Origin: Burkholderiales bacterium
GTDB lineage: Bacteria; Pseudomonadota; Gammaproteobacteria; Burkholderiales; Burkholderiaceae_C
DNA: 64,000 nucleotides
Direction: 5' to 3'
NCBI GenBank assembly: GCA_016195825.1
Contig: JACPYV010000136.1
Span: 1 to 64,000 of the forward strand
In this document: piece by piece, positions 1 to 13,332 of the stretch
How the letters are laid out: every line of letters begins with the position of its first letter
Numbering within the stretch: the stretch's first letter is position 1
Translations under genes and position numbers: made by a program
Notes under the pieces: model-generated
What the model was told of the DNA's origin: nothing
Seen by the model: the letters and a program-made list of their open reading frames with translations, nothing else
Databases searched by the model: none

Positions 1-22
1 AGGGTCCACATCGGAGTCCGCC

Positions 23-478
23 ATGAAAACCCTTGCCCGCACGCTGATCGTTTCTGCCTTGGTGGCTGCCACCGGCGTGGCGGGTGCCGGTCCGCGCTAC
101 TACGGCCCCTCGCATGGCCACTACCACCACCATGACGGCTGGGGCCTGGGCGGCCTGGTGCTGGGGCTGGCCGTGGCGGTGCCGCTGATTGCGTTGGCCA
201 GCCAGGCTGACCGGGCGCCCGATGTGGTCTACGTGCAGCCGCCGCCGGCCCCGCTGCCCCCGCCGCCGGTCGTCTACGCACCCCAGCCCGTGTATGCGCC
301 CAGTCGCCCCGCGCCGGTGATCTACCCGCGCAACGGGCAGAGCAACGCGCAGCTCGAGGCCGACAACCGCGAGTGCAACCGCTGGGCGACGACCCAGCAG
401 GCCGCCATGGCCGACGCCAGCGTGTTCCAGCGCGCCGTCGAAGCCTGCATGGACGGCCGCGGTTACACGCTGCGCTGA
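23..478 (+). CDS. Small exported hypothetical protein, Pro/Tyr-rich
   Basis: A 151-residue protein of unknown function. The first ~22 residues form a signal peptide ending near AGAG. A His/Tyr/Gly-rich patch follows (about 24-40, with an HYHHH run), then a hydrophobic Gly/Leu/Val segment (about 42-60) that could sit in a membrane. Residues about 70-105 are a Pro/Val/Tyr-rich low-complexity linker. The C-terminal ~45 residues form a compact block with two cysteines (CNRW and ACMDGRGY) that could be disulfide-bonded. A GGAG-like ribosome site precedes the ATG. The overall build resembles small periplasmic or outer-membrane-associated hypotheticals of Burkholderiales. The His-rich patch could bind metal, but nothing proves it. 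Confidence 0.75.
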   Translation: MKTLARTLIVSALVAATGVAGAGPRYYGPSHGHYHHHDGWGLGGLVLGLAVAVPLIALASQADRAPDVVYVQPPPAPLPPPPVVYAPQPVYAPSRPAPVIYPRNGQSNAQLEADNRECNRWATTQQAAMADASVFQRAVEACMDGRGYTLR

Positions 479-609
479 CCCGGCACCGTTCCCGGGGCGA
501 CGGCCCTTTGCGGTCTGGCGGTACCGTGAGTGACCTGGCTGCGGCCGGGTCGATACATTGCCCCCTGCGCCAACCCTTGGCGTCGGCAATCACAGTCACG
601 GAGGTCTCG

Positions 610-1065
610 ATGGACAACCCCAGCGTCACCCTGATCCAGCGTCAGGGCTACCAGTTCGAACACCACTACGCGCCGGAGCTGCCCGTGCTGCTGGCCGACG
701 AGCCGGTGCCCTTCGGTACCGGCCTGGGGCCGGACCCGGTGGAGCTGCTGGCCTCGGCGGTGGGCAATTGCCTGAGCGCGTCGCTGTGGTTTGCCTGCCA
801 GAAGTACAAGGACGACCCGTCGCCGCTGCGCACCGAGGTCAAGGCGACGGTGGGCCGCAACGAGCGGGGCCGCAACCGCGTGCAGGGACTGGCCGTGGAC
901 CTGCACCTGGGCAAGCCGGCGGACCAGCTCGGCCATCTCGCCCGCGTGCTGGAGACCTTCGAGGACTACTGCACCGTCACGCAGAGCGTGGCGCCGGCCA
1001 TCCCCGTGACGCTGCGCGTGCTGGACAGCAGCGGCGCCGTGCTGAAAGGGGACGGGCCGGCCTGA
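610..1065 (+). CDS. OsmC family protein
   Basis: A 151-residue OsmC/Ohr-superfamily protein. The two conserved cysteines are visible in GNCLSASLWF (about residue 58) and EDYCTVTQ (about 122), the typical spacing for the peroxidatic and resolving cysteines that reduce organic peroxides. The ATG at 610 follows GGAGG and gives a normal-length protein. The same frame is open much further upstream, but that extension overlaps the preceding gene and looks non-coding. It stands alone between two exported proteins. The divergent OsmC subgroup is not always a peroxidase, so the substrate is uncertain. Confidence 0.85.
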   Translation: MDNPSVTLIQRQGYQFEHHYAPELPVLLADEPVPFGTGLGPDPVELLASAVGNCLSASLWFACQKYKDDPSPLRTEVKATVGRNERGRNRVQGLAVDLHLGKPADQLGHLARVLETFEDYCTVTQSVAPAIPVTLRVLDSSGAVLKGDGPA

Positions 1066-1189
1066 GCCGCCGACATTCGAGACTTTGTTGACATTCCTGC
1101 CGCCGGGCCCCCCCGGGTTGAACGAGGCCAAATCACAGACCCCCACCATAGACTGCGACCCGTTGCAATTTACGTTCTAGGGGGGTCAT

Positions 1190-2125
1190 GTGGTGAAGAG
1201 CATTGTTTCGTCGGTGTGTGCGCTGGTGGCGCTGGGCGCGGTTTCGCAGGCGCAGGCCGGTGCGCTGACGCTGAACAACACCTACACGCTGGGTGCCACG
1301 CTGTCGGCGGCCTCGACCAACTACCACCCCCAGGGCATGAGCTACGACGAAAGCAGCAACGAGCTGATCTTCGTCGACCAAAGCGCCAACAGCATCGTCC
1401 GCACGGACCGTACCGGCGCCGTGCTCGGCACGCGCACCATCGGGCAGATCACCTTCAGGCCGGATGGCTCGAATGCGTCGACCGCCAATCACGTCGTGTC
1501 GGTCGCCGCGGATGCCGGCAACTACTACTTCAGCGACTACACCAACAACAGCACGGGCTATGACCTGTACCGCATCGGCAAGGCCTCCGGCGCGGCAGCA
1601 GCGGTTGGCGCCGAGACGGCAGCCTTTGGCGGCTATCCGATCGATGTCCGCAGCGGCCAGCTCTACCGCACCGAGGCGACGACGGGTTACTCCAACAGCA
1701 CGCTGCACAACATCCGCGTGTCGTCCACCACGACGCCCGACACCATCACCAAGACGCTGACGCTGACTGGCACGGGCATTGCCGATTTCGCCATCGACAC
1801 GAGCCACAACTCCATCTGGGTGCTGGACTACCTGGCCTCGGCGTCGATCCGCCGCTTCGACCTCACTACGGGCTCGTTGCTGGAGACCTTTGGCCTCGGC
1901 CTGGAAGGCCTGGACGCCGGCCTGACCTATGGCAACGGCCAGCTCTTCTATTACGACTGGCGCAGCGGCAGTGGCAGCAGCCTGAAGGTGTTCGACGTCA
2001 GCGGCATTGCCAGCACGACGCCTGCCTCCCTGCCGGAGCCCGGCGCGCTGGCCCTGTTGGGCGTCGCCCTGTCCGCGATGGTTGTGGCGGGCCGGCGTCG
2101 CAACCGGCGCGCTCAAGGCCTGTAA
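1190..2125 (+). CDS. PEP-CTERM sorting domain protein, beta-propeller-like
   Basis: A 311-residue exported protein. It begins with GTG GTG after an AGGGGGG ribosome site; the nearby ATG at 1188 is out of frame. A signal peptide ends near AQAG (about residue 22). The body is rich in Ser/Thr/Gly/Asn and has repeating strand-like units (HPQGMSYD, NELIFVDQ, NSIWVLDY), suggesting a 6-bladed propeller or SMP-30-like fold. The tail is a classic PEP-CTERM signal: LPEPGALALLG, a hydrophobic helix, then an Arg-rich end. In known systems this is cut by an exosortase, which is not in this window. Expected location is the cell surface or extracellular matrix. Confidence 0.85.
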   Translation: MVKSIVSSVCALVALGAVSQAQAGALTLNNTYTLGATLSAASTNYHPQGMSYDESSNELIFVDQSANSIVRTDRTGAVLGTRTIGQITFRPDGSNASTANHVVSVAADAGNYYFSDYTNNSTGYDLYRIGKASGAAAAVGAETAAFGGYPIDVRSGQLYRTEATTGYSNSTLHNIRVSSTTTPDTITKTLTLTGTGIADFAIDTSHNSIWVLDYLASASIRRFDLTTGSLLETFGLGLEGLDAGLTYGNGQLFYYDWRSGSGSSLKVFDVSGIASTTPASLPEPGALALLGVALSAMVVAGRRRNRRAQGL

Positions 2126-2148
2126 GCCGGCGCTCGACGCCGTCAACA

Positions 2149-2182
2149 AGCCGCTGGGGCCAGGCCTGCAGCGGCTTTTCTT
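2149..2182 (+). terminator. Rho-independent terminator after PEP-CTERM gene
   Basis: AGCCGCTG at 2149-2156 pairs perfectly with CAGCGGCT at 2169-2176 and is followed by TTTCTT. It sits 23 bp after the PEP-CTERM gene and just before the end of the convergent ABC operon. Confidence 0.75.
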
Positions 2183-2184
2183 AT

Positions 2185-2952
2185 TCAGGCCGGCATCTCC
2201 AGGCCCAGCTCCTTGAGGATGGCTTCGCGGAGCTGGTCCATCTCCGGGCTGATGAGGCGGCGGGGGTGCGGCATGTCCAGCTCGAAGCGGGCCTGGATGC
2301 GCGTGGGCCGGGGCGACAGCACGAGGATGCGGTCGGCCATGTAGAGCGCCTCGTCGACATCGTGGGTGATGAGGAGGACGGTGTGCTTCTCTTCGGCCAA
2401 GATGCGCAGCAGCTCGTTGCGCATGCGCAGGTTCATCAGCGCGTCCAGCGCCGAGAAGGGCTCGTCGAGATACAGGATCTCGGGCTTGACGATGAAGGCC
2501 CGCGCCAGCTCCACGCGCTTGAGCATGCCGCCCGACAACTCGTGCGGGTAGGCGCCCTCGAAGCCCTTCAGGCCCACCATGGCCGCGTAGTGGTCGGCCA
2601 GCTCGGCGTTGGCGGCGTTCTGGCCGTCAAGCAGGCCGAACATCAGGTTCTGCTGCACGGTCAGCCACGGGAAGACCGAGCCGTACTGCGAGATGACGAT
2701 GCCCTGCGGGCTGGGCCCGGGGTGGGGCCGGCCGGCGATGAGCAGCTCGCCCGCATCGGGCTTCTCGAAGCCGGCCAGGATGTTCATCAACGTGGACTTG
2801 CCGCAGCCCGAGGGTCCCACGATGGCGACGAACTCGCCCTCGGCAACCTCGAAGTCCACGCCCTGGATGACGGGCAGCTGGCCTCCCTTGGCGGCCTTGA
2901 AGCTCTTCGTCAGGCCGCTGACGGCGATCTTGGGAGTCTGCTTATCGGACAT
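2185..2952 (-). CDS. ABC transporter ATP-binding protein, NrtD/SsuB/TauB type
   Basis: A 255-residue ATPase of the nitrate/sulfonate/taurine importer class. Walker A is GPSGCGKST (about 46-54), the signature is LSGGMLKR rather than the usual LSGGQ-type, and Walker B is ILYLDEPFSALD. A downstream switch His is visible in LLITHDVDEA. It is the last gene of the leftward operon and overlaps the permease gene by 11 bp, so it should energise that permease. The substrate cannot be read from the ATPase. The SCO and cupredoxin genes in the same operon make the usual assignments (nitrate, sulfonate, taurine) doubtful. Confidence 0.9.
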   Translation of the reverse strand: MSDKQTPKIAVSGLTKSFKAAKGGQLPVIQGVDFEVAEGEFVAIVGPSGCGKSTLMNILAGFEKPDAGELLIAGRPHPGPSPQGIVISQYGSVFPWLTVQQNLMFGLLDGQNAANAELADHYAAMVGLKGFEGAYPHELSGGMLKRVELARAFIVKPEILYLDEPFSALDALMNLRMRNELLRILAEEKHTVLLITHDVDEALYMADRILVLSPRPTRIQARFELDMPHPRRLISPEMDQLREAILKELGLEMPA

Positions 2953-3709
2953 AGCGCCACCGCACGGTCTTGAGTTTTTCCAGAAGGCGTGTCGCGCCGT
3001 CCAGCATCAGCCCGATGACACCGATAAGGATCATGCTGGCGATGACGAGGTCGTAGCGGTTGCCGGCGTTGCGCGAGTCCATGATGAGGTACCCCAGGCC
3101 CGAGCGCAGCGCGATCATCTCGGCCGCCACCACCACCAGCCAGGCCACCCCGATGCCGATGCGCATGCCGATGATGATTTCCGGCAGCACGGCCGGAATG
3201 ACGACGCGGCGGAACATGACGCTGCGCGACACGCCGAAATTGGCCGCCGCGCGCAGGTAGCGCCGGTCGATGGTGTGCACGCCCGAGGTCGTCTGAACGA
3301 TGAGCGGGAACACCGACGAGATGAAGATCAGGAAGATGGGCGACACGTCGCCGACGCCGAACCACAGGATGGCCAACGGGATCCAGGCGATGGGTGAGAT
3401 GGGCCGCAACATCTGGAAGATGGGGTTGAACGTGCGGTAGGCGCCGCCCACCCAGCCCATCCACAGGCCCAGCGGGATGCCCACCCCCATGGCCAGCCCG
3501 AAGCCGACGCCCACGCGGAACAGCGAAGAGCCGATGTGCTCCCACAGCGTGCCGTCCTCGGCCAGCTCCAGCGTGCCGGTCACCACCTGCCAGGGCGTGG
3601 GGAAGATGGGGCTCTGGGTGTAGACGACGATGCCCCACCAGGCGGCGATGAGGACGGCGATGACCGCCAGCGGCGGCAGCACGCGGGCCAGACGAGAGTT
3701 CCAGTTCAA
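2942..3709 (-). CDS. ABC transporter permease, NrtB/SsuC type
   Basis: A 255-residue inner-membrane permease with about six membrane segments and the binding-protein-dependent transport motif near the C-terminal third (RAAANFGVSRSVMFRRVVIP), where the coupling helix contacts the ATPase. The most likely start is TTG at 3709, whose bases overlap the TGA of the upstream cupredoxin-like gene (TTGA), a translational-coupling arrangement. The longer reading back to 3832 runs into that upstream gene and adds a non-membrane stretch. Family: NrtB/SsuC/TauC. It is coupled to the ATPase at 2185-2952 and the binding protein at 4706-5746. Confidence 0.85.
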   Translation of the reverse strand: MNWNSRLARVLPPLAVIAVLIAAWWGIVVYTQSPIFPTPWQVVTGTLELAEDGTLWEHIGSSLFRVGVGFGLAMGVGIPLGLWMGWVGGAYRTFNPIFQMLRPISPIAWIPLAILWFGVGDVSPIFLIFISSVFPLIVQTTSGVHTIDRRYLRAAANFGVSRSVMFRRVVIPAVLPEIIIGMRIGIGVAWLVVVAAEMIALRSGLGYLIMDSRNAGNRYDLVIASMILIGVIGLMLDGATRLLEKLKTVRWRYVR

Positions 3710-4137
3710 GCAGCGGTCTCCGGGTTCATGAGTCTGTGCCTGTGCTGCCAGCGCCATTGCAGGCGCTGCCAGCCGGCTTGCGGCGTGGGTGCGACGACGA
3801 TGCTCATCTGCCCGCTGGCATGAGCCGAGCACGCGAAGCTGTAGGTCGATGCGACCTCGAAAGGCAGCCTAAAGCTCTGCCCCGGCATGATGAGCACGGG
3901 CCCGAACTGCTGCGGCACCTCGTCGCGGTTGCGCAGCAGCAACTGGTCGTTCAGGCCCAGCGTGAGGTCGATGCGGTCCGGCAGGATCTCGACCTTGTCG
4001 CCGGCCATGCGGCGGGCGTAGGTGCCGGGCGGGATCTCGAACAGCTCGTCGCGCGTGGGCAGGGTGATCGGCGCAAGCGCTGCCCAGGCAAGCGGCGCCA
4101 GCAGGACGACCGGCAGGAGCCAGAGAAGACGCTTCAC
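3706..4137 (-). CDS. Small cupredoxin-like periplasmic protein
   Basis: A 143-residue exported protein. Residues 1-20 form a signal peptide (ALAWAA-like end). Near residues 103-111 the segment CSAHASGQM has a Cys, a His three residues later and a Met eight residues after the Cys, which is the spacing of the type-1 copper site of plastocyanin-like proteins. The first copper His, normally 30-50 residues earlier, is not evident: the expected place reads EVPQQFG (about 74-79). So it may be a modified copper site or a copper chaperone. GTG start at 4137 overlaps the SCO gene stop (GTGA). It lies inside the ABC operon between SCO and permease. Confidence 0.75.
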   Translation of the reverse strand: MKRLLWLLPVVLLAPLAWAALAPITLPTRDELFEIPPGTYARRMAGDKVEILPDRIDLTLGLNDQLLLRNRDEVPQQFGPVLIMPGQSFRLPFEVASTYSFACSAHASGQMSIVVAPTPQAGWQRLQWRWQHRHRLMNPETAA

Positions 4138-4709
4138 CTGGCGGCCAGCAGCAGCTTGAGGTCGTGCACGAAGTCCGGCGCCGGGTGGCCGTAAGGCATC
4201 ATGGCCCGCAGCCTGCCGGTGCGGTCGATCAGCCAGACCGACGTGGAGTGGTTCATGCCGTAGGCGTTGGGCTGTGTGGCTGCGATCTTCTCGGCCACGA
4301 CGCCGTAGCGCTTGCGCATTGCAGCCAGCGTGGCTGGGGCCTCAGTGCCGCCGATGAAGCTGGGGTCGAACGCCGCCAGGTACTGGCGGATGCGCGCAGC
4401 GTCGTCGCGCTCCGGGTCCACCGTCACGTAGACGACCTGCACGTCTGCAGCATCCGCACCGAGTTGCTTGCGTGCCTGGGCGAGGGTCGCCAGCGTCGTC
4501 GGGCAGACCTCGGGGCAGTTCGTGAAGCCGAACACCAGCAGCACCAGCTTGCCCTTGAAGCGGGCGAGATTCAGCGCGGCGCCATCGCTGCCCTTGAGTG
4601 CGAACTCCGGGGCGGGCTGGGCGGGGTCGAAGACGCCGGCCTTGAGCCTCTCGTTCGCCGCCGCGGCGCCCAGCGGCAGCGCGGCGAGCATCAGGGCACG
4701 GCGTTTCAT
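4134..4709 (-). CDS. SCO1/SenC family copper-binding thioredoxin-fold protein
   Basis: A 191-residue exported protein with an N-terminal hydrophobic segment and the SCO core. CPEVC at residues 65-69 supplies the two copper-binding cysteines and H154 (in MNHSTS) the third ligand. The fold motif FGFTNCPEVCP and the VYVTVDPERD strand are typical. SCO proteins bring copper to cytochrome oxidase CuA sites or act as periplasmic thiol-disulfide/copper proteins. Here no oxidase gene is nearby. Instead it is translationally coupled to a binding protein (4-bp overlap) and to a cupredoxin-like gene, pointing to a role with this transporter. Confidence 0.9.
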   Translation of the reverse strand: MKRRALMLAALPLGAAAANERLKAGVFDPAQPAPEFALKGSDGAALNLARFKGKLVLLVFGFTNCPEVCPTTLATLAQARKQLGADAADVQVVYVTVDPERDDAARIRQYLAAFDPSFIGGTEAPATLAAMRKRYGVVAEKIAATQPNAYGMNHSTSVWLIDRTGRLRAMMPYGHPAPDFVHDLKLLLAAR

Positions 4710-5746
4710 ATCGGCATGGGCGCGGCCTTGGCCGCCTTCACGAAGCTCTCGTCCACGTACTTCTCGTAGGCCACCGGCGCCTTCAGCGTGCCGGCCTCAA
4801 TGGACAGCTGCATCAGCTCGTCGAACTCGGCGCGGATCATGCGCAGGTCGCCGTAGGTGACGCGGTCCGTCGGGTTCTCCATCACGAAGCGCAGGATGTT
4901 GGGGTCCTGGTTGAAGAACTTGCGACCGGCCGCGATCTGGATGGCCTTCTCGCGGTTGGCGGCCTGCAGGTCCAGCCAGTTGCCGGCGCCCTGCACGTGG
5001 TTGACCAGGTCCTGCACCAGCGGCCGGTTGTCCTTGATCAGCTCCTCACGCACCGTCAGCACGCAGCAGATGTAGTTGCGCCACTCGTCGCGCGTCATGC
5101 GCAGCGGCTTGGCATAGCCCGCGCGTTGGGCCGCGGCACCGAAGGGCTCGCCGGTGCAATAACCGTCCACCGCCTTGGCGAACAGCGCCGCCGGCATGTC
5201 GGGCGGCGGCATCTCGACGATCTGGACGTCCTTCGGGCTCATGCCCTCCTGCGCCAGCATCTTGCGCAGGAACAGGAAGTCCACAGCGAAGCGGCTGGGG
5301 ATGGCGATGCGCTTGCCCGTCAGGTCCTTGAACTTCTTGTAGGGCGAATCCGTGCGCACCATGATGACCGCGCCCGAACGGTGGCCCAGCGAGACGATCT
5401 TGACCGGGATCTTCTTGTCCGCCAGGTCCATGACCAGCGGCGCCAGCATGTAAGCCGCCTGGATACGGCCCGTCATCAGCGATTCCTTGATCTCGGGCCA
5501 GCCGTTGTACTTGCTGTACTCGAACTCGAAGGCCTTGCTGCCCGACGCCTTGTTGGACGCCATGCGTGCCGAGCAGGCGACGGGCAGCGTCAGGTTGCAG
5601 GTGACCGGCAGGCCGCCCACGATCAGCGGGTCGGACGCGGCCCCCGCCGTGAAACCGGCCGGCAGCAACGCCGAAGCCGCCAGGCCTTGTAGCAGCTGGC
5701 GGCGGCCGACACCGGTGGGCGGGAACTCGGTCGAATCTGGATTCAT
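4706..5746 (-). CDS. NrtA/SsuA-like ABC substrate-binding protein, Tat-exported
   Basis: A 346-residue periplasmic binding protein. The N-terminus carries GRRQLLQG followed by a hydrophobic stretch, a twin-arginine-type signal. The body has the NrtA/SsuA/TauA layout (DPLIVGGLPV, FEYSKYNGWPEI, GEPFGAAAQ). Unusual for the family are several cysteines: VTCNLTLPVACSARM near the start of the mature protein, GYCTGEP, and YICC. These could form a thiol-rich ligand site, which would fit a thiophilic metal better than nitrate or sulfonate. The ATG at 5746 is preferred; the longer open frame upstream covers the divergent promoter region. First gene of the five-gene leftward operon. Confidence 0.85.
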   Translation of the reverse strand: MNPDSTEFPPTGVGRRQLLQGLAASALLPAGFTAGAASDPLIVGGLPVTCNLTLPVACSARMASNKASGSKAFEFEYSKYNGWPEIKESLMTGRIQAAYMLAPLVMDLADKKIPVKIVSLGHRSGAVIMVRTDSPYKKFKDLTGKRIAIPSRFAVDFLFLRKMLAQEGMSPKDVQIVEMPPPDMPAALFAKAVDGYCTGEPFGAAAQRAGYAKPLRMTRDEWRNYICCVLTVREELIKDNRPLVQDLVNHVQGAGNWLDLQAANREKAIQIAAGRKFFNQDPNILRFVMENPTDRVTYGDLRMIRAEFDELMQLSIEAGTLKAPVAYEKYVDESFVKAAKAAPMPI

Positions 5747-5923
5747 GGGATGGGGCAGGGGCGTCGACGCTTCGCCAGAGAGCGGCCCAGCCGGGCGACG
5801 ACGGGGCGCCAAGACTTTGCCAGCGCCCTGGGTGCTGTCCATCCGTGCGAACGGCATTGATCCGACGTACCTACAAATCCGGCCGAAGCGACGCGCCGGG
5901 GATGCTGCGCGTACCATCGCGGC
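5747..5923. promoter_or_regulatory. Divergent promoter region between metal-handling-like operons
   Basis: A 177-bp gap separates the starts of the leftward ABC/SCO operon and the rightward Cys-rich pair, so promoters for both must lie here. It is less G+C-rich around 5855-5885. No confident -35/-10 pair or operator palindrome was recognised by eye. Confidence 0.45.
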
Positions 5924-6202
5924 ATGCGCAAGCTGCTCACCGTCCTGCTGGTGCTGTTCGGTTGCCTGACCTTCGTCGGGCAGGCGGTCGCGGGCGCTGC
6001 CGGCTACGACGACTGCTGCCTTCATGGCTGCAAGGGCATGACGCAGTGCGCGAGTGCTGCTTGCCACACTTGCGCCGCGCCTCAGCAGGCACCGTTGCCG
6101 GACCGGCCCGCAGCACCTGCGCCCGACGGACGGCACTGGCACGAGTCAGCTGCGCCGTTTGATACCGGCCCGCGACGGAAGCCCTGGACGCCGCCCGACT
6201 AG
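5924..6202 (+). CDS. Small exported Cys/His-rich protein
   Basis: A 92-residue protein that I do not recognise as a named family. Residues 1-24 form a signal peptide. The mature part opens with a dense cluster: CCLHGC at 31-36, C42, C47, H48 and C50, giving six cysteines and two histidines within about 20 residues. The remainder is Pro-rich with two more histidines. Such a cluster is what a periplasmic copper, zinc or mercury binder would look like. It is divergent from the SCO/cupredoxin/ABC operon and 45 bp upstream of a second Cys-rich micro-gene, with no terminator between them. Regulatory leader-peptide roles are also possible. Confidence 0.7.
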   Translation: MRKLLTVLLVLFGCLTFVGQAVAGAAGYDDCCLHGCKGMTQCASAACHTCAAPQQAPLPDRPAAPAPDGRHWHESAAPFDTGPRRKPWTPPD

Positions 6203-6247
6203 GGGATGACTGCCCTCACGCATTCATCAACCCTGAAAGGACATTCC

Positions 6248-6376
6248 ATGAAATCCAAGCTTATCAAGACCGGCGCAGCCGTGGCGCTGCTGGCGGGCTC
6301 CGCCGCCGCCTTCGCCTCCCAGGCCTGCTGCGGCGACATCGCCTGCTGCCTGCAGCAGCTGCTTTGCTGCCTGTAA
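6248..6376 (+). CDS. 42-residue exported peptide with three Cys-Cys pairs
   Basis: A very short gene. An AAAGGA ribosome site at 6236-6241 precedes the ATG at 6248 by 6 bp; the stop is TAA at 6374. Residues 1-24 are a textbook signal peptide (Lys-rich start, Ala/Leu core, AFAS cut site). The mature peptide of about 18 residues contains six cysteines in three pairs at 27-28, 33-34 and 40-41 (ACCGD, ACCLQ, LCCL). A strong terminator follows at once. The proper ribosome site, signal peptide and terminator argue it is real. It probably binds a soft metal or forms a disulfide-linked scaffold. No family assignment is made. Confidence 0.75.
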   Translation: MKSKLIKTGAAVALLAGSAAAFASQACCGDIACCLQQLLCCL

Positions 6377-6396
6377 GTTCCAGGTGAACTGAAAAA

Positions 6397-6421
6397 AAGG
6401 CCGGCGCATAGCGCCGGCCTT
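6397..6421. terminator. Bidirectional terminator between Cys-rich peptide and gdhA
   Basis: A perfect 11-bp stem, AAGGCCGGCGC (6397-6407) with GCGCCGGCCTT (6411-6421), and an ATA loop. A run of seven A (6392-6398) on its left serves as the T-tract for the leftward glutamate dehydrogenase gene, and CCTGTTT on its right serves the rightward peptide gene. Confidence 0.85.
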
Positions 6422-6443
6422 CCTGTTTGAGCGCCGTCCCGGC

Positions 6444-7715
6444 TCAGGGGTAGAGGCCACGCTCCTCGCGCGCCTGCAGCACCCGCGTGCAAGCCACCGT
6501 GAAGGCGGCCGTGCGCAGCGTGATCTTGTGCAGCTCGCTGGTTTCCCAGATGTGCTTGAAGGCGCCGATCATGATCTTGTCCAGGCGAACGTTGATCTCG
6601 TCCTCGGTCCAGAAGAAGGACGAGAAGTCCTGCACCCACTCGAAGTAGGACACGGTCACGCCGCCAGCGTTGGCGATGACGTCCGGCACCACCACGATGC
6701 CGCGGTCGGCCAGCACGGCCTCGCCGTCCGGCGTGGTCGGGCCGTTGGCGCCTTCCAGCACCAGGCGGGTGCGGATGCGCTTGGCACGCTCGGCGGTGAT
6801 CTGCCCTTCCAGCGCGGCGGGGATCAGCACGTCACTGGCCACGTCCCAGAAGTTCTCGTCGTCGATCTTGTCGGCGCCGGCGAAGCCCGCCACACCCTTG
6901 TAGGTGGCCACGTGCTCCAGCAGGCTGGTCATGTCGAAGCCGTTCTCGTTCAGGATGGTGCCGGTGTGGTCCTGCACGCAGACGATCTTGGCGCCGTTGG
7001 CGGCGAACAGCTTGGCCGCGATGGAGCCGACATTGCCGAAGCCCTGCACCGCGATGCGGGCGCCGTCCAGCGGCTGGTTCAGGCGGCGCATGGCCTCGCG
7101 TCCCACGACGAACACGCCGCGGCCGGTGGCGGCCACGCGGCCCAGCGAGCCACCCAGCGGGATGGGCTTGCCCGTGACCACGCCGGTCGCCGTGGCGCCC
7201 GTGTTCATCGAGTAGGTGTCCATCATCCAGGCCATGATCTGGCCGTTGGTGTTGACGTCCGGCGCCGGGATGTCCTGCTGCGGGCCGATGATGATGCCGA
7301 TCTCGCTGGTGTAGCGGCGCGTCATCTTCTCCAGCTCTTTGAGGCTGAGCAGCTTGGGGTCGACACGGATGCCGCCCTTGGCGCCGCCGTAGGGCAGGTT
7401 GACCGCGGCGTTCTTGATCGTCATCCAGGCCGACAGGGCCATCACTTCTTCCAGCGTCACGTCCGGGTGGTAGCGCACGCCGCCCTTGCCCGGGCCGCGC
7501 GTCAGGCTGTGCTGTACGCGGTAGCCCTCAAAGTGGGCGATGGTGCCGTTGTCCAGCTCGATGGGGATGTCCACGATCAGCGCGCGCTTGGGGCGACGCA
7601 GCGTCTCGACCCAGCGGGCCAGGTTGCCGAGATAGGGCTCGACCGCGTCGATCTGCGACAGGTAGGTTCCCCAGGGGCTGTTGCGCGTGGGCGAAACAAA
7701 CGACAGGTTGGGCAT
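6444..7715 (-). CDS. gdhA: Glutamate dehydrogenase (Glu/Leu/Phe/Val dehydrogenase family)
   Basis: A 423-residue cytoplasmic enzyme that interconverts glutamate and 2-oxoglutarate plus ammonia with a nicotinamide cofactor. The dimerisation domain carries the substrate motif [11 protein letters not shown] (about 113-123), whose Lys is catalytic, and the Rossmann domain carries VQGFGNVGS (about 225-233). The ATG at 7715 (MPNLSF) gives normal length; the longer reading to 7790 would absorb the promoter. The NAD-type hexamer is suggested by length and by the [10 protein letters not shown] motif. It links the arabinose-derived 2-oxoglutarate pool with nitrogen metabolism, but stands alone here with its own terminator. 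Confidence 0.92.
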
Positions 7716-7772
7716 GAAATGCTCCGTAACTTTGAGTGGGGCGAACGGTAGCGCGAAGGCTGCCTTGCCGGC

Positions 7773-7799
7773 CATGACTTGTCTAGCCAAGTGGTCATG
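7773..7799. promoter_or_regulatory. Nested palindrome upstream of gdhA
   Basis: CATGAC at 7773-7778 is mirrored by GTCATG at 7794-7799. Inside it CTTGTCTAGCCAAG (7778-7791) is a near-perfect 14-bp palindrome. It lies 58-84 bp upstream of the gdhA start, where an operator would be expected. The binding regulator is unknown. Confidence 0.45.
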
Positions 7800-7873
7800 C
7801 GCTCATGCAAGCAAAGCATGGCAACGCTTGCTGAGGGCGGATTTCACGATCTTGGACAGCGCCGAGCAAGAGA

Positions 7874-7895
7874 AAACCCGACCTTGGCCGGGTTT
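7874..7895 (-). terminator. Terminator of the putative-Ig lipoprotein gene
   Basis: Read leftward, AAACCCG (7895-7889) pairs with CGGGTTT (7880-7874) around an 8-nt loop and runs into TTTTCTCTT. It sits 30 bp after the lipoprotein stop. Confidence 0.65.
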
Positions 7896-7925
7896 GCATC
7901 GGTCTGCGTCGGTTCCCGACAGGCC

Positions 7926-9224
7926 TCAGGCAATCGTGAAACTCCATGTCTGGATGGACGAGAAGCTCTTGCCGCCGCGCTGCGTCGTCACCTTCAGCCG
8001 CAGGCCGTAGACGCGGCGTTCGGCATCGTCGGGCACCGTGATCGAGACGACGCCCGTCGTCGGGTTCACGACAGCCCAGCTGGGCAGGGTGCTTGAGTCG
8101 AGCGGCGGCAGGATCTCAAAGGCGTAGCTGTCGCCGGCCTGGCCTTGGAACATGGCGCGCGGAATGAAGACGTTGCTGCCCTTGTAGACCTGACCCAGCC
8201 GGAAGGGCACGTAGCAGATGCTGGCGCCCGGGGGGAGGCAGTCGCGTGGGTCGTAGATGGGCAGCACGCCATTGACGCGGACCTCCACGGGCGCCGTGTC
8301 GACGGAATATTGGAGCCCGTCGGCCGTCGCCAGCGAAATGCGAACGACGAAGCTGGCCTGGAAGGCGGTGTCGATGATGCCCGCGAGGACGCCCGTGGCT
8401 GCATCCAGCTTCAGCCCCGGCGGTGCCGCACCGACGAACTCGAAGCGCACCGGCCGGTAAGGGCCCAGCATCTCTGTGGACGGCTGGACGGGGATCACGG
8501 GCTTGAGCTCGCCCATGTCGACGGCGTTGACGAAGGCGCCGTAGTAGCTGAAGGTGAGGCCCGGGACGCCCACCTTGAACTTGCGGGTGGCGGGCAGGAG
8601 GGTCAGGCGTTGGCCGCTGCGGTCCAGGGTGGCGGACACGGTGATCTCGAAGTCACCCGTTTCCAGCGGTGTGCCCGTGAACGCGCCGGTTTTCGGGTCC
8701 AGCGTCAGCCCGGCAGGCAGCTTTCCGGCGGTCACGCTGAAATTGCTGACGTCCGAGGGGCGTGTGCTGAACATGCCGGCGGCCTGAAAATAGGCGCGCG
8801 CATTCGTATCCACCGCGCTGAGCATGCGGGCTTCGGCGGGTTCCGACACGGCGAGCACGGGGCCGCCAATGTCGACGCTGAGCCTGACCGTGGCGCTGCC
8901 GCTGTAGCCGCTGGCCGTCACCAGGACCTGGGCATCGAAGCGACCGGGTTGTGTGGGCGTCCCGGTTAAGCTGCAGTCTCCCGCCAGCGCCATGCCGGGC
9001 GGCAGATTGCCGTTCGAGTAGCTGCACTTCAACCCGCCGGGCAGCGTCGGGGCGACGGCGGTCAAGCTGGCGGGAACCAGCACTTCGGCCGCGGCGCTCA
9101 GGTCATAGGTTCCCGACAGCGCGGGCTGGTTGGCGGGCGAGCCGCCCGAACCGCCGCCGCCACATGCCGAGAGCAGGGCCAAAACCCCCCAAACAAATGC
9201 GCCACGCGCACCGATCCGCACCAT
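7926..9224 (-). CDS. Putative-Ig (He_PIG-like) domain lipoprotein
   Basis: A 432-residue lipoprotein. The signal peptide ends in LLSAC followed by GGGGSGG, a lipobox at about residue 20. The rest is built of repeated beta-sandwich units with the phrase LPxGLxLDxxTGxxxGTP-like (for example KLPAGLTLDPKTGAFTGTP and APPGLKLDAATGVLAG), typical of He_PIG cadherin-like modules. There is one further unit near the C-terminus (LPSWAVVNPTTGVVS). At least four units can be counted. The function is probably surface adhesion or a structural role. ATG at 9224 is chosen for the signal peptide; the long upstream open frame overlaps the divergent Kef gene and is not real. Confidence 0.8.
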   Translation of the reverse strand: MVRIGARGAFVWGVLALLSACGGGGSGGSPANQPALSGTYDLSAAAEVLVPASLTAVAPTLPGGLKCSYSNGNLPPGMALAGDCSLTGTPTQPGRFDAQVLVTASGYSGSATVRLSVDIGGPVLAVSEPAEARMLSAVDTNARAYFQAAGMFSTRPSDVSNFSVTAGKLPAGLTLDPKTGAFTGTPLETGDFEITVSATLDRSGQRLTLLPATRKFKVGVPGLTFSYYGAFVNAVDMGELKPVIPVQPSTEMLGPYRPVRFEFVGAAPPGLKLDAATGVLAGIIDTAFQASFVVRISLATADGLQYSVDTAPVEVRVNGVLPIYDPRDCLPPGASICYVPFRLGQVYKGSNVFIPRAMFQGQAGDSYAFEILPPLDSSTLPSWAVVNPTTGVVSITVPDDAERRVYGLRLKVTTQRGGKSFSSIQTWSFTIA

Positions 9225-9332
9225 CCAACCCTCCCAGGTCTTTGTCGATTGAGGGGGCGGAGTCTGCCAGTCGGAAAGGCCAGATCCGGGCCGCGCCCTC
9301 TGGATGCGGGGAACGGGCTCTACCATCGCCTG

Positions 9333-11327
9333 GTGACCTCCCTTGACCTTGCCCTGCTCTATCTCGTGGCCGCCGTGCTGGGCGTGGTGGTGTGCCGCTC
9401 GCTGAAGCTGCCGCCCATGCTGGGCTACCTGGCCGTGGGGGTGCTGATCGGCCCGAACGCGCTGGCGTTTGCGCACGATTCGGCCAGCATCCAGTACCTG
9501 GCGGAGTTCGGCGTCGTGTTCCTGATGTTCGCCATCGGGCTGGAGTTCAACCTGCCCAAGCTGCGCGCGCTGAAGACGGCCGTATTCGGCATCGGCATGG
9601 CGCAGGTGGTGCTGACCATCGCCGGCGCCGTGGCCGGCAACGTGCTGCTGATCGCCGGCTACGCGCTGCTGGGCGGCCTGTGGGAGCTGCAGTGGCAGGG
9701 CGCGCTGGTGCTGGGTGCGGCCATGGCGATGAGCTCGACGGCCATCGTCGTCAAGCTGATGGCTGAGCGGCTGGAGCTGGAGGGCCCGCACGGCAAGCTG
9801 GTCATGGGCGTGCTGCTGTTCCAGGATCTGGCCGTGGTGCCGCTGCTGGTGCTGATCCCGGCGTTGAACAGCAGCGGCAGCCAGATGATGAGCGCACTGG
9901 CCTGGGCCGGGCTGAAGGCGGCTGTGCTGCTGGGGCTGCTGCTGTATGGCGGCCAGAAGCTCATGCGCTGGTGGCTGACGCTGGTGGCCCGGCGCAAGAG
10001 CGACGAGCTGTTCATGCTCAACCTGCTGCTGGTGACGCTGGGCCTAGCCTGGATGACGGAGCATGCCGGGCTGAGCCTGGCGCTGGGCGCGTTCGTGGCG
10101 GGCATGCTGATCGCCGAGACCGAATACAAGCACCAGGTGGAGACCGACATCCGGCCCTTCCACGATGTGCTGCTGGGCCTGTTTTTCATCACCATCGGCA
10201 TGAAGCTGGACTGGCGGCCGCTGGTGGACAGCTGGTGGCTGGTCATCCTGCTCACCGCCCTGCCCGTGGTCGCCAAGTTCGCGCTGATCGCGGGCCTGGC
10301 GCGGCTGTTCAAGTCGCCGCCGGGCGTCGCGCTGCGCACGGGCCTGTACCTGGCCCAGGCCGGCGAATTCGGCTTCGTGCTGCTGACGCTGGGCGCCCAG
10401 CACGACCTGATCGCTGCCCACTGGGTCAGCCCGGTGCTCGCGAGCATGGTGCTGTCCATGCTGGCCACGCCCATCCTGGTCATGTACAGCAACCGCATCG
10501 TCATGAAGCTGTCCAGCAGTGACTGGCTGATGCAGTCCGTGCAGCTGACGTCGATCGCCAAGAAGTCCATCAAGACCGAGGCCCACGTCATCATCTGCGG
10601 CTACGGCCGCTCGGGCCAGAACCTGGCGCGTCTGCTGGAGGGCGAGGCCATTCCCTACATGGCGCTGGACCTGGACCCCGACCGTGTGCGCCAGGCTGCC
10701 GCGGCCGGCCAGAGCGTGGTGTTCGGCGATGCGGCCAAGGTGCAGAGCCTGATGGCCGCGGGCCTGGCGCGCGCCAGCGCCGTGGTCGTCAGCTACCACG
10801 ACACGCCGTCGGCGCTGAAGATCCTCAACCTCGTGCAGACCCATGCGCCGCGCGTGCCGGTGGTCGTGCGCACCATCGACGACAGCGACCTGGAGCGGCT
10901 GAAGGCCGCCGGCGCCACCGAGGTGGTGCCCGAGGCCATCGAGGGCAGCCTGATGCTGGCCTCGCACGCGCTGGCGCTGGTGGGCGTGCCGATGCGCCGC
11001 GTTATCCGCATCACGCGCGACGCCCGTGACAAGCGCTACGGCCTGCTGCGCGGCTACTTCCACGGCGCGGACGACGACACCGGCGACGAGGTCAACCAGG
11101 CCCGCCTGGCCTCGGTGACGCTGCCCACCGCCTCGCCGCACGCCGGCCGGCCGCTGGACGACCTGGCGCTGCATGCCATGGGGGTCGCTGTGGTGTCGCT
11201 GCGGCGCGCCAACGGCAAGGCCGTACTGGTCGACGGCGGCGCAGCGCTGGCCGGTGGCGACACCTTGGTCATCAGCGGCATGCCGGCCGCGCTGGCGCTG
11301 GCCGAGGGCAAGCTGCTGGCAGGCTGA
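9333..11327 (+). CDS. Kef/YbaL-type cation:proton antiporter with RCK domain
   Basis: A 664-residue CPA2-family membrane protein. About twelve hydrophobic segments fill residues 1-385. A Rossmann RCK/TrkA-N domain starts near 418 (HVIICGYGRSGQNLARLL), and a TrkA-C-like domain lies near 590-660. Family members exchange K+ (or Na+) for H+ and are gated by nucleotide or glutathione binding to the RCK domain. GTG at 9333 (VTSLDLALLY) is taken as start because the upstream in-frame stretch is polar and not membrane-like. There is no KefF/KefG partner nearby. It ends 10 bp from the convergent acyltransferase gene. Confidence 0.88.
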   Translation: MTSLDLALLYLVAAVLGVVVCRSLKLPPMLGYLAVGVLIGPNALAFAHDSASIQYLAEFGVVFLMFAIGLEFNLPKLRALKTAVFGIGMAQVVLTIAGAVAGNVLLIAGYALLGGLWELQWQGALVLGAAMAMSSTAIVVKLMAERLELEGPHGKLVMGVLLFQDLAVVPLLVLIPALNSSGSQMMSALAWAGLKAAVLLGLLLYGGQKLMRWWLTLVARRKSDELFMLNLLLVTLGLAWMTEHAGLSLALGAFVAGMLIAETEYKHQVETDIRPFHDVLLGLFFITIGMKLDWRPLVDSWWLVILLTALPVVAKFALIAGLARLFKSPPGVALRTGLYLAQAGEFGFVLLTLGAQHDLIAAHWVSPVLASMVLSMLATPILVMYSNRIVMKLSSSDWLMQSVQLTSIAKKSIKTEAHVIICGYGRSGQNLARLLEGEAIPYMALDLDPDRVRQAAAAGQSVVFGDAAKVQSLMAAGLARASAVVVSYHDTPSALKILNLVQTHAPRVPVVVRTIDDSDLERLKAAGATEVVPEAIEGSLMLASHALALVGVPMRRVIRITRDARDKRYGLLRGYFHGADDDTGDEVNQARLASVTLPTASPHAGRPLDDLALHAMGVAVVSLRRANGKAVLVDGGAALAGGDTLVISGMPAALALAEGKLLAG

Positions 11328-11337
11328 GGCGCCGCGC

Positions 11338-13332
11338 TCAGCGCGCCAGCGCCGCAATGGCCTGGCGGCTGGCGATCTGCGGCAGCAGCCGGCGCGAGCC
11401 CTCGACGCTCAGGTGGCCGGCGTCGCGGTACAAGGCCAGGCCGTCGGCGTCCGCGGTGCGGCAGGCCTGGGCATCGCACAGCGCGGCGTCCAGCCACAGC
11501 ACCGGCACGCCGGCCTCATGCTCGAAGCGCTTGAGCAGGGCCGTGACGCGCTGCTGCAGCGGCGGTATTTCGGCGCGGACGATGCGGCAGTCCGCGGGCG
11601 CCCCCAGCGTGAGCAGGCCATGCTGGCGCCGCTCCAGGCAGGCGCCGGCATCGAAACCGCCCTTGGGTGGGGGTGACACCCAGACCAGCCGCTGGCCCTG
11701 CGCGCGCAGCGCCTGCGCCAGCCGCCCGGCTGCCGCCACCAGCGCGTCCTCGATGCGGTCTTGCGGCACCTCCTGCTCCGCAGGGCCCTCCAGGCGCAGC
11801 AACTGCCCGCCCGGCGGGCCCAGGTATTGCGCCAGCAGGCTGGACACCAGCACCACTCGGGGCGCACCTGGCGCCGACAGCGCGTCAAGCACCGAGCGGT
11901 TGAAACGCTCGCACTGCCGTGCCCAGTCGCGCGTGAAGCTGGCGCCGGGCTGGGCCTCGGCCCGCCAGGGCGCCACACCCAGCAGCGGGCCGCAGGACGA
12001 TTCGGTCATCTGCAGCAGCCCCGGCGCGGCGACGGCCAGGCCGGGCACGAGGTGCATCGCGTAGGAGTCACCCCAGACCGCCCAGCCCGGCTGGCCGGCG
12101 TCGCGGCACTCGGACCGGTCCGCCCAGCGCTCCCATTGATCGCAGCTGGCGGCGAAGCCGTGGTTGGGGCGACGCGCGTCGGCCGCTTGTGCGGCCGGGT
12201 CGGCGGACCAGGCCAGCGGCAGCAAGGCCAGCAGAGCCGTCATCGCCAGAACCGCGCCCCAGGCCCGCGCCGTGCGGGGCAGCGGCCAGCGCCGCGTCGT
12301 CTGCTCCACGCCGCGCCACAGCAGCCAGGCCAGCGGCAGCGCCAGCGCGGCGGCCAGCAGGCGGGCATGCGCCAGGCCCGGCGCGTCCGGCGGGCCTACC
12401 CAGGCGTTGTTGACGAAGGCGATCAGTGGCCAATGCACCAGGTAGAGGGAGTAGGACAGGTCGCCCAGTCGCGCCAGCGGCACCAGCGCACGTAGCGCCT
12501 GGGGCCGGCCCTCGCTGAGCAGCAGCGCCAGCGTGGCCAGGCCCACCAGCAGCGCGTTGGCGCCCGGGTGGCCCATGCCGCCCCAGGCCGGCAGCGGCGC
12601 CATCGGCAAGGCCACCAGCAGCAGCGCGGCCGGGACCCGCCAGGCCCGCCCCGCGCGCCAGCCGCCGGCGTGGGCAAAGGCGCCCAGGGAGCCTAGGCCC
12701 AGCTCCCACGCGCGGCTGGGCAGCAGGTAGAAAGCGGCGCTGGCGTCGTGGCGCTGCAGCCCCAAGCCCAGCAGCAGGCTGGCCAGCGTCAGCGCCACCA
12801 GCAGCACCAGCCCGCGCCGGCCTGTGCCGGCGGCCAGCAGCAGCGCGGGCAGCAGCAGGTAGTACTGCTCCTCCAGCGACAGCGACCAGAAATGCAGCAG
12901 CGGCTTGAGCTCCGCCGCCACATCGAAATAGCCGCTCTGCTGCCACAGCACCATGTTGCTGGCGAAGCCCAGCGCGCCCCAGTGCTGGCGGGCCAGGTCC
13001 GCCTGCTCCACCGACCCCAGCCACCATGGGCTGGCCAGCAGCGTGGCCGCCAGCACCACGTAGGCAGCCGGCAGCAGGCGGCGGGCGCGGCGGGCGTAGA
13101 ACTGCGCCAGGCTGAAGCGCCGTTCGCGCTGCGCCCGCAGCACCAGGCCGGTGATGAGAAAGCCCGAGATGACGAAGAACAGGTCCACGCCCAGGTAGCC
13201 GCCCGGCAACAAGCCGGGCGCCGCGTGTTGCAGCAGCACGCCGGCGACGGCCAGGCCGCGCAGGGCCTGGATGTCCCAGCGGTGGTCGGGCTCGCTGGCA
13301 GGCGACGGCGTCGTGAAAGGCATGGCCGGCAT
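11338..13332 (-). CDS. OafA/YrhL-type O-acyltransferase fused to SGNH domain
   Basis: A 664-residue two-part enzyme. Residues about 15-360 form the integral-membrane acyltransferase-3 domain ([54 protein letters not shown]). After a spacer, an SGNH hydrolase-like domain follows with [10 protein letters not shown] (Ser block) and DAGHLSVEG (catalytic Asp/His block) near the C-terminus. Such fusions acetylate O-antigen, exopolysaccharide or peptidoglycan in the periplasm. The start may be ATG 13332 or ATG 13323; longer readings run into the divergent acyl-CoA dehydrogenase promoter. No polysaccharide synthesis genes are adjacent, so the acceptor is unknown. Confidence 0.85.

Follow-up and report, generated by a model that had tools for sequence, protein, structure and literature searches.

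Copper entry into the bacterial cytoplasm is poorly known, and in the literature searched the phrases tried led to no paper on an ABC copper importer. CcoA and the uptake of methanobactin fulfil the task of copper uptake, while neither is an ABC pump with a SCO protein and a cupredoxin. If the operon analyzed here takes up copper, it would share their task. ABC importers of the NitT/TauT type (SsuA/NrtA/TauA) have the fold of the substrate-binding protein (SBP) and the permease and ATPase families in common with this operon. However, the operon scores too low for the NCBIfam models of nitrate, taurine or sulfonate transporters (ntrCD 193 of 292, TauC 153 of 342 and SsuA_fam 121 of 163.5 bits; for the ATPase among the best 25 of 199 matches), and in addition it comprises five conserved SBP cysteines and fixed genes for a SCO and a cupredoxin-like protein. 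The closest solved relative of the SBP is an S. aureus protein titled as zinc-bound (3UN6; E 2.5e-47 by profile, rank 1 by fold). It is 27% identical, has a Cys-Cys pair as well and could bind metal through its residue at position 50, but it carries His instead of C50 and Ser instead of C197, and its zinc may stem from the crystallisation liquor. Another related ABC set (SBP-permease-ATPase) belongs to the cooS operon of R. albus plasmid pRUMAL02. Its SBP is 30% identical and has the GYC and VCC motifs in common with ours, whereas position 50 is His and the partner gene is cooS instead of SCO and cupredoxin. For the ABC sets of clade B Ni-CODH clusters, import of a metal, nickel, is a published hypothesis (PMC6344411), and the R. 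albus set may be of this kind, its CooS being presumably of clade B. A haloarchaeal cupredoxin-SCO-thioredoxin-CcdA operon is induced under denitrifying conditions; its cupredoxin adjoins SCO as here, but an ABC transporter does not form part of it (PMC11218638). The selenoprotein-linked Sao ABC system provides the nearest NCBIfam names for our ATPase (SaoA, 194 of 360 bits) and permease (SaoP, 184 of 295 bits), while these, as well as SaoX (53 of 300 bits), stay far below their cut-offs.

The window, i.e., the whole stretch of 64,000 nucleotides analyzed, contains the five-gene operon on the minus strand (2185-5746), opposite two Cys-rich ORFs on the plus strand. The operon begins with the SBP gene (4706-5746; 346 aa, ATG start; NMT1_2/SsuA-like), followed by the genes for SCO (4134-4709; 191 aa), the cupredoxin-like protein (3706-4137; 143 aa, GTG start), a NitT/TauT-type ABC permease (2942-3709; 255 aa, with a TTG start that is likewise found in two congeners compared) and an ATPase of the same type (2185-2952; 255 aa). 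Neighboring genes overlap by 4 bases each, except for permease and ATPase, which share 11. Divergently, 177 bp from the SBP start, lies the gene of P92 (5924-6202, plus; 92 aa), a small exported-looking Cys-rich protein, and it is followed by that of P42 (6248-6376, plus; 42 aa), a tiny exported-looking peptide with three Cys-Cys pairs, for which a mechanical ORF list places the start 14 codons earlier, at 6206. An earlier note on this DNA had described five leftward genes with overlaps of 4-11 bp, a SCO protein with CPEVC and H154 and, across 177 bp, two Cys-rich ORFs of 92 and 42 residues; all of this can be read in the sequence, the SCO residues within the 191-aa ORF.

The same note assigned SCO and cupredoxin to the importer operon, and the gene order in relatives bears this out. 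Our locus survey comprised the best 80 of 91 relatives, found with two search patterns from close relatives, and thus distant operon forms are under-sampled; L015-L021 and L024-L030 stem from identical contigs, and each of these entered the count a single time. All five genes were present in 73 of the 82 loci read, in each case in the order SBP-SCO-cupredoxin-permease-ATPase and on a single strand. Among the remaining nine, eight are truncated by contig ends (L035, L036, L043, L049, L069, L070, L072, L076) and one, L023, is a distant form (39% identity), an ABC set of the same branch lacking SCO and cupredoxin, which was excluded from the SBP alignment. Complete units occur in Sphaerotilaceae, Oxalobacteraceae, Comamonadaceae, Steroidobacteraceae, Cellvibrionaceae, Nevskiaceae and one MAG filed as Polyangiaceae. 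Conservation of the gene order over several families exceeds what chance would give, and the distances of the five genes correlate with each other (r 0.54-0.79 over 66 loci, compared to a maximum of 0.26 in 200 permutations). A profile search over the phylum (398 genomes, including our own) delivered, in addition to the window itself, three further genomes, all from a single genus. Clusters lacking the accessory genes had been named earlier as a test of the proposed system: clusters without the Cys-rich genes do exist, whereas among the loci read no close cluster lacked SCO or cupredoxin, only the distant L023. In a plasmid search for operon copies, the cooS-linked SBP was the sole SBP match at 1e-30; the best plasmid SCO match belongs to an unrelated TonB-receptor/PepSY/SCO cluster and was discarded.

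The SCO protein exceeds the Pfam cut-off (SCO1-SenC, 131.9 bits) and possesses the CxxxC motif and distal His of copper-binding SCO proteins. C65 and C69 of CPEVC are kept in 80/80 sequences and H154 in 79, the exception (L064) being a gene that contains N runs. An extra His182 was present in all 22 operon rows, but in only 1 of 16 others, and in the SCO tree a branch (78/97) separates the operon proteins from the rest. At least one further strong SCO gene accompanies that of the operon in 9/9 operon-bearing genomes compared. Judged by the tree and His182, the operon SCO is a dedicated paralogue.

The cupredoxin-like protein scores below its Pfam cut-off (16.6 of 21.2 bits). Its AlphaFold model (pLDDT 94.3), however, finds experimental cupredoxin structures in Foldseek (lowest E 1.8e-5; TM of the top hit 0.46, normalized to the query), so that a cupredoxin fold is predicted from the model. 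The protein comprises an N-terminal helix, C103-x2-H106-x4-M111, M84 and Gln76. C103 and H106 are found in 79/79 sequences, while position 111 is Met in 75 and Leu in four, a variation that is known for type-1 axial ligands. Gln76 (78/79; His in L103) occupies the place at which a type-1 site should have its first His, with the register set by eye. Thus the full type-1 ligand set of two His, Cys and an axial residue is not given, since the first His is replaced by Gln.

Permease (BPD_transp_1, 71.4 bits) and ATPase (ABC_tran, 104.4 bits) both exceed their Pfam cut-offs, and together with an NMT1-type SBP in one operon they constitute an ABC importer of the NitT/TauT type; across the aligned loci the permease has no conserved Cys. 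For the SBP, the families NMT1_2, NMT1 and Phosphonate-bd lie over their Pfam cut-offs, all of them general, and its AlphaFold model reaches a pLDDT of 87.8. The twin arginine of its leader (R15 R16) was found in 82/82 sequences, hence the protein is probably exported in folded form. C50, C197, C227 and C228 are equally kept in 82/82 sequences, C58 in 80/82, and H122 is conserved as well. That a Cys-rich SBP supports a soft metal, as had been proposed earlier, holds insofar as the cysteines are conserved; they are compatible with a soft metal, free or in a complex, but do not prove it. Position 50 is Cys in the operon, His in 3UN6 and in the cooS-linked SBP, and Asp in four SBPs adjoining acyl-CoA dehydrogenase genes. 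The exchange of His for Cys would be expected for a softer metal. The pair 227/228 is not copper-specific, since it recurs in 4/4 SBPs read beside acyl-CoA dehydrogenase genes, which are possible organosulfur importers.

These relatives raise the question whether the SBP carries an organosulfur or other redox-active organic compound (thiol, sulfonate, thiocyanate or similar) instead, with SCO as thiol-disulfide reductase for the SBP cysteines or the ligand and the cupredoxin as electron carrier. We consider this unlikely, yet a live rival, because the wider kin of the SBP is zinc-bound (3UN6), located beside Ni-CODH or located beside acyl-CoA dehydrogenase genes. SsuA_fam is the best NCBIfam match of the SBP, the four acyl-CoA-dehydrogenase-linked plasmid SBPs share its Cys-Cys pair, and three of them are also located near OsmC or carboxymuconolactone decarboxylase genes. 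Furthermore, in nine Duganella/Rugamonas loci MsrA-like and DipZ-like thiol genes, named by eye, are found directly upstream on the same strand. However, nearly all operon SCOs retain the copper-binding His, for which an enzyme that only reduces thiols should have no use, the Asp at position 50 of the plasmid SBPs differs from the Cys of the operon SBP, and no desulfonation gene recurs beside the operon in the flank clusters inspected.

On balance, we regard it as somewhat probable that the operon is a self-contained copper-acquisition module, importing Cu(I) or a copper-ligand complex. The Tat-type SBP would bind its cargo, Cu(I) or a small copper-ligand complex, in the cleft through soft cysteine ligands; candidates are C50, just past the first strand, together with C58, C197, C227/C228 and H122, and the cysteines would converge in one site. 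The dedicated SCO, by means of CxxxC and His, and the membrane-anchored cupredoxin might reduce, hold or pass on periplasmic copper, and the NitT/TauT-type ABC pump would then move the ligand into the cytoplasm. We infer copper as the metal, and likewise in which direction it is transferred and that import results. Several observations speak against this reading: the permease has no conserved Cys, the cupredoxin lacks the first type-1 His, the Cys-Cys pair is not confined to the operon, the SBP families over their cut-offs are general ones, L023 manages without SCO and cupredoxin, and in the flank clusters inspected no copper regulator, TonB receptor or cuproenzyme recurs. A narrower version is put forward tentatively and is, taken as a whole, somewhat improbable: a Cu(I) ABC importer whose Tat-exported, sulfur-rich SBP is loaded by SCO and a Gln-for-His cupredoxin, and which belongs to a branch of metal-binding SBPs where one cleft position, position 50, tunes the ligand (Asp for an organic anion, His for Ni or Zn, Cys for Cu).

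The genes beside the operon bear on a further alternative, namely an ATP-driven periplasmic copper-insertion machine as known from NosDFY, which serves NosZ: SBP, SCO and cupredoxin would deliver copper to a periplasmic cuproenzyme and the ABC part would power its release. Two dedicated periplasmic copper-protein families within one operon are in line with this idea, and the usual clients of SCO proteins are copper centres in the periplasm. Nevertheless, we consider it quite improbable. SBP-linked permeases of the NitT/TauT type are known as importers from characterised cases, and in the flank clusters inspected no cuproenzyme gene recurs. Flanking ORFs of at least 90 aa were clustered over 76 loci, and seven cluster representatives as well as 28 further flank ORFs were read. 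The largest cluster (14 loci, five of them outside Duganella/Rugamonas) is a response regulator, the next (13 loci, four outside) a PAS sensor kinase and one of eight loci a GGDEF/EAL protein, all named by eye, while many clusters of nine loci reflect Duganella/Rugamonas synteny. No convincing shared partner emerged among the clusters inspected, although a rarer one could be missed. NosZ was surveyed in 60 genomes, including our own, with strong matches in 11. Three are over the cut-off, none of them operon-bearing; eight, at 432-454 bits, are below it, three operon-bearing (G002, G008, G026) and five not. Since neither the window genome nor 5/8 operon-bearing relatives gave a strong match, NosZ was rejected as a general client.

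The earlier note further joined importer and Cys-rich mini-proteins into one thiophilic-metal system, and in the window the divergent layout across 177 bp and the Cys-rich, exported-looking character of all partners invite such a view. Yet in no other locus read was a P92/P42 match found near the operon (E 1e-4). Two congeners, G010 (83% complete) and G018, have the pair but not the operon, and G007, the one other relative with both, carries two cassettes, one on another contig and one 434 kb off. Moreover, the stretch 5' of the operon (5804-5874, minus) aligns with the SBP-gdhA spacers of seven congeners (pieces of 39-71 bp, 69-77% identity), and the pair separates this stretch from gdhA, whereas in congeners little distance lies between the two. 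On the basis of these neighborhoods we rejected the pair as part of the operon, and the one-system reading is very improbable. P92-P42 is a separate cassette and an unrelated neighbor, which in the window was added upstream of the operon, on the gdhA side of its conserved 5' stretch. Consequently, of the proposed soft-metal import or buffering, the membership of SCO and cupredoxin and the conserved cysteines stand, while the mini-proteins drop out. The stretch 5804-5874 probably holds the putative promoter of the operon; no consensus sigma-70 site was found in it. Shared upstream 9-mers were present in at most 10/82 sequences, k-mer counts being a weak method, and no Rfam RNA reached gathering scores in positions 1-12000.

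At E 0.1, neither P92 nor P42 hits any family of Pfam or NCBIfam. They are real genes nonetheless, since neighboring homologues occur in three congeners as well as in a genome from a different family, and the two were adjacent in 6/6 copies. C31, C32, C36, C42, C47 and C50 of P92 are invariant in five aligned copies, while the mature part of P42, with cleavage judged by eye, comprises about 19 residues with the three Cys-Cys pairs. One copy of the pair follows a Cd/Pb-type regulator gene near heavy-metal exporters. The idea of P42 as a SaoC protein had to be abandoned: it lacks an NCBIfam match and ends in Cys-Cys-Leu rather than Cys-Cys-COOH, with a residue after the last Cys in 6/6 copies.

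Taken together, P92-P42 represents an unnamed gene pair, and the SBP branch provides a series of natural variants in which ligand choice can be compared on a single fold. With the operon being compact, strictly ordered and present in culturable genera (Pelomonas/Roseateles, Duganella, Massilia), the copper question is testable.

The five overlapping leftward genes and the two rightward genes for Cys-rich mini-proteins that the earlier note described are indeed present in the window. The operon lies on the minus strand and encodes a substrate-binding protein (SBP, 4706-5746), an SCO protein (4134-4709), a cupredoxin-like protein (3706-4137) and the permease (2942-3709) and ATPase (2185-2952) of a NitT/TauT-type ABC importer. 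In this order neighbouring genes share 4, 4, 4 and 11 bases, and the operon sits between an osmC/PEP-CTERM region on one side and gdhA on the other. Pfam cut-offs were passed by four of the five proteins, SCO, permease and ATPase among them, the exception being the cupredoxin-like protein (16.6 bits, cut-off 21.2). The mini-protein genes, P92 and P42, stand on the plus strand, 177 bp across from the operon. A short tandem array (period 9/18) is found at 16454-16510.

The mini-proteins had been proposed as part of the importer system, but a neighbourhood comparison of the pair argues against this, as homologous pairs in relatives stand apart from the operon or occur where it has no match. Homologues of both proteins occur in 3 of 59 relatives, adjacent in each, with a second pair (L116) in genome G007; 300 order-level genomes (own included) gave one other match, again with both genes as a pair. 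P92 and P42 are adjacent in 6/6 copies (window 5924-6376, L113, L114, L115, L116, L132). In G010 (83% complete) the pair adjoins a cation-efflux gene and in G018 a nickel/cobalt efflux gene lies at most 2 kb away, an operon match being absent from both genomes. In G007 a regulator gene of the CadR/PbrR type (TIGR02047; 179 bits against a cut-off of 151) precedes one pair by 36 bp, and further upstream on this strand come genes for a heavy-metal P-type ATPase and a cation-efflux protein. This pair is on a different contig from the operon, while L116 shares the operon's contig at a distance of 434 kb. No metal genes were seen by eye in the ORF lists near L116 and L132. Judging from the context in three genomes, with two copies without such context, this unnamed two-gene cassette is probably a heavy-metal resistance accessory. 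In the window it was most likely inserted between the stretch 5804-5874 and gdhA, since in seven congeners the spacer matches first 5804-5874 and next the gdhA end at ~6440. The six Cys of P92 and the three Cys-Cys pairs of P42 are kept in five aligned copies, and the P42 pairs are also present in the sixth. With cleavage judged by eye, the mature part of P42 comprises about 19 residues with the three Cys-Cys pairs.

The five-gene operon itself is a fixed unit. An SBP match at E 1e-40 or better was found in 9 of 60 relative genomes (own included), namely the window's genome, 7 of 19 congeners and a single member of a different genus in this family. All eight relatives carry the five genes in identical order, and gdhA and osmC flank the operon as in the window in 7/7 operon-bearing congeners. 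A collection of 84,980 species, scanned once, gave 91 relatives, the best 80 of which were kept. We read 82 loci (L022-L103): 73 complete, eight broken by contig ends and one distant form (L023). Order and strand are the same in 73/73 complete loci, with median intergenic gaps of 14, 11, 4 and -11 bases along the operon. In L064, an Alginate_exp outer-membrane protein gene (544 residues, L064:6375-8009) splits cupredoxin from permease. Across 66 loci, the pairwise distances of the five genes show correlations of 0.54-0.79, whereas 200 permutations reached no more than 0.26. Hosts, according to the labelled rows of an SCO tree, belong to Sphaerotilaceae, Oxalobacteraceae, Comamonadaceae, Steroidobacteraceae, Cellvibrionaceae and Nevskiaceae, besides one Polyangiaceae MAG; a few further groups are named in MAG record titles from the scan. 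The system is uncommon: 2 of 369 class-level genomes (own included) matched at 1e-50, the second match being of the distant L023 type. Directly upstream of the operon and on the same strand, nine Duganella/Rugamonas loci (L047, L048, L050-L053, L056, L060, L062) contain genes named by eye as MsrA-like and DipZ-like (CcdA-thioredoxin). A description of the operon was not found in the literature searched, most subscription papers lying outside its coverage. PMC11218638 describes a haloarchaeal operon that combines cupredoxin and SCO but has no ABC transporter.

SCO C65 and C69 are kept in 80/80 sequences and H154 in 79/80, the sole exception being L064, where the SCO gene contains N runs. In the SCO tree (38 rows), all 22 operon SCOs fall on one side of a branch with moderate support (78/97; recovered in 80% of bootstrap trees), and H182 occurs in 22/22 of them versus 1/16 other SCOs. 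At least one additional strong SCO gene is carried by 9/9 operon-bearing genomes checked. The cupredoxin model, built with 55 sequences, reached a mean pLDDT of 94.3. Foldseek against solved structures placed Nitrosopumilus purple cupredoxin first and amicyanin next, while the copper chaperone CupA ranked 42nd; even the best match is distant (TM 0.46 by query length). C103, H106 and M84 are kept in 79/79 cupredoxins, and position 111 is Met in 75/79 and Leu in 4. A type-1 copper site is expected to carry His at the place of position 76 (register judged by eye). Since Gln stands there in 78 sequences (His in L103), the predicted copper site is altered relative to type-1, and the protein may serve to carry Cu(I) instead of electrons. 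With these two proteins beside an ABC transporter, the operon might also be read as a NosDFY-like copper-insertion machine, which we consider improbable.

C50, C197, C227, C228, H122 and the twin arginine of the SBP are kept in 82/82 sequences and C58 in 80/82. By mean identity, conservation of the SBP (0.745) is similar to that of the permease (0.758) and exceeds that of the ATPase (0.710). Its closest solved relative, with E 2.5e-47 by profile and E 4.2e-26 by Foldseek, is 3UN6, an S. aureus SBP deposited with zinc, which shares the Cys-Cys pair but has His at position 50 where the operon SBP has Cys. The sole plasmid match at 1e-30 is an R. albus set of SBP, permease and ATPase with cooS directly after it. 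According to PMC6344411, NitT/TauT transporters accompany clade B Ni-CODHs, their SBP has been likened to 3UN6 and metal import has been proposed for them. More distant SBPs adjoin acyl-CoA dehydrogenase genes (R. albus query: 16 plasmid records). In the four further records opened (L125, L126, L127, L128), SBP-ABC sets stand beside such genes, three of them also close to a gene for OsmC or carboxymuconolactone decarboxylase, and all four SBPs contain the Cys-Cys motif. The L023 SBP has 39% identity, and SCO and cupredoxin are absent from its locus. There (L023:81-7177), the SBP-permease-ATPase set, which belongs to the same branch, is tightly flanked by a 4HBT_2 thioesterase gene and a multidomain PKS-domain gene (AT, KR and DH found), which by eye resembles iterative enediyne/PUFA-type synthases. 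In L122, L123 and L124, the gene after a distant SBP (29-31% identity) resembles, by eye, one for a chemoreceptor or sensor; the stretches read gave no permease or ATPase match.

All 82 SCO-linked sequences, and L023 as well, have Cys at position 50; the cooS-linked SBP and 3UN6 have His there, and the four SBPs beside acyl-CoA dehydrogenase genes have Asp. Apart from L023, where Ser-Cys stands instead, every one of these proteins contains the Cys-Cys pair. Because the pair is thus shared by SBPs with other partners, it is by itself no evidence for copper. What speaks for copper is C50 and C58 of the SBP together with the SCO and cupredoxin genes. An organosulfur ligand of the SBP is conceivable, if rather unlikely. 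We favour, with some reservation, a copper system: the Cys-rich SBP would capture Cu(I) or a Cu complex, SCO and cupredoxin would act as reducing or relay partners, and the ABC permease and ATPase would import the captured ligand.
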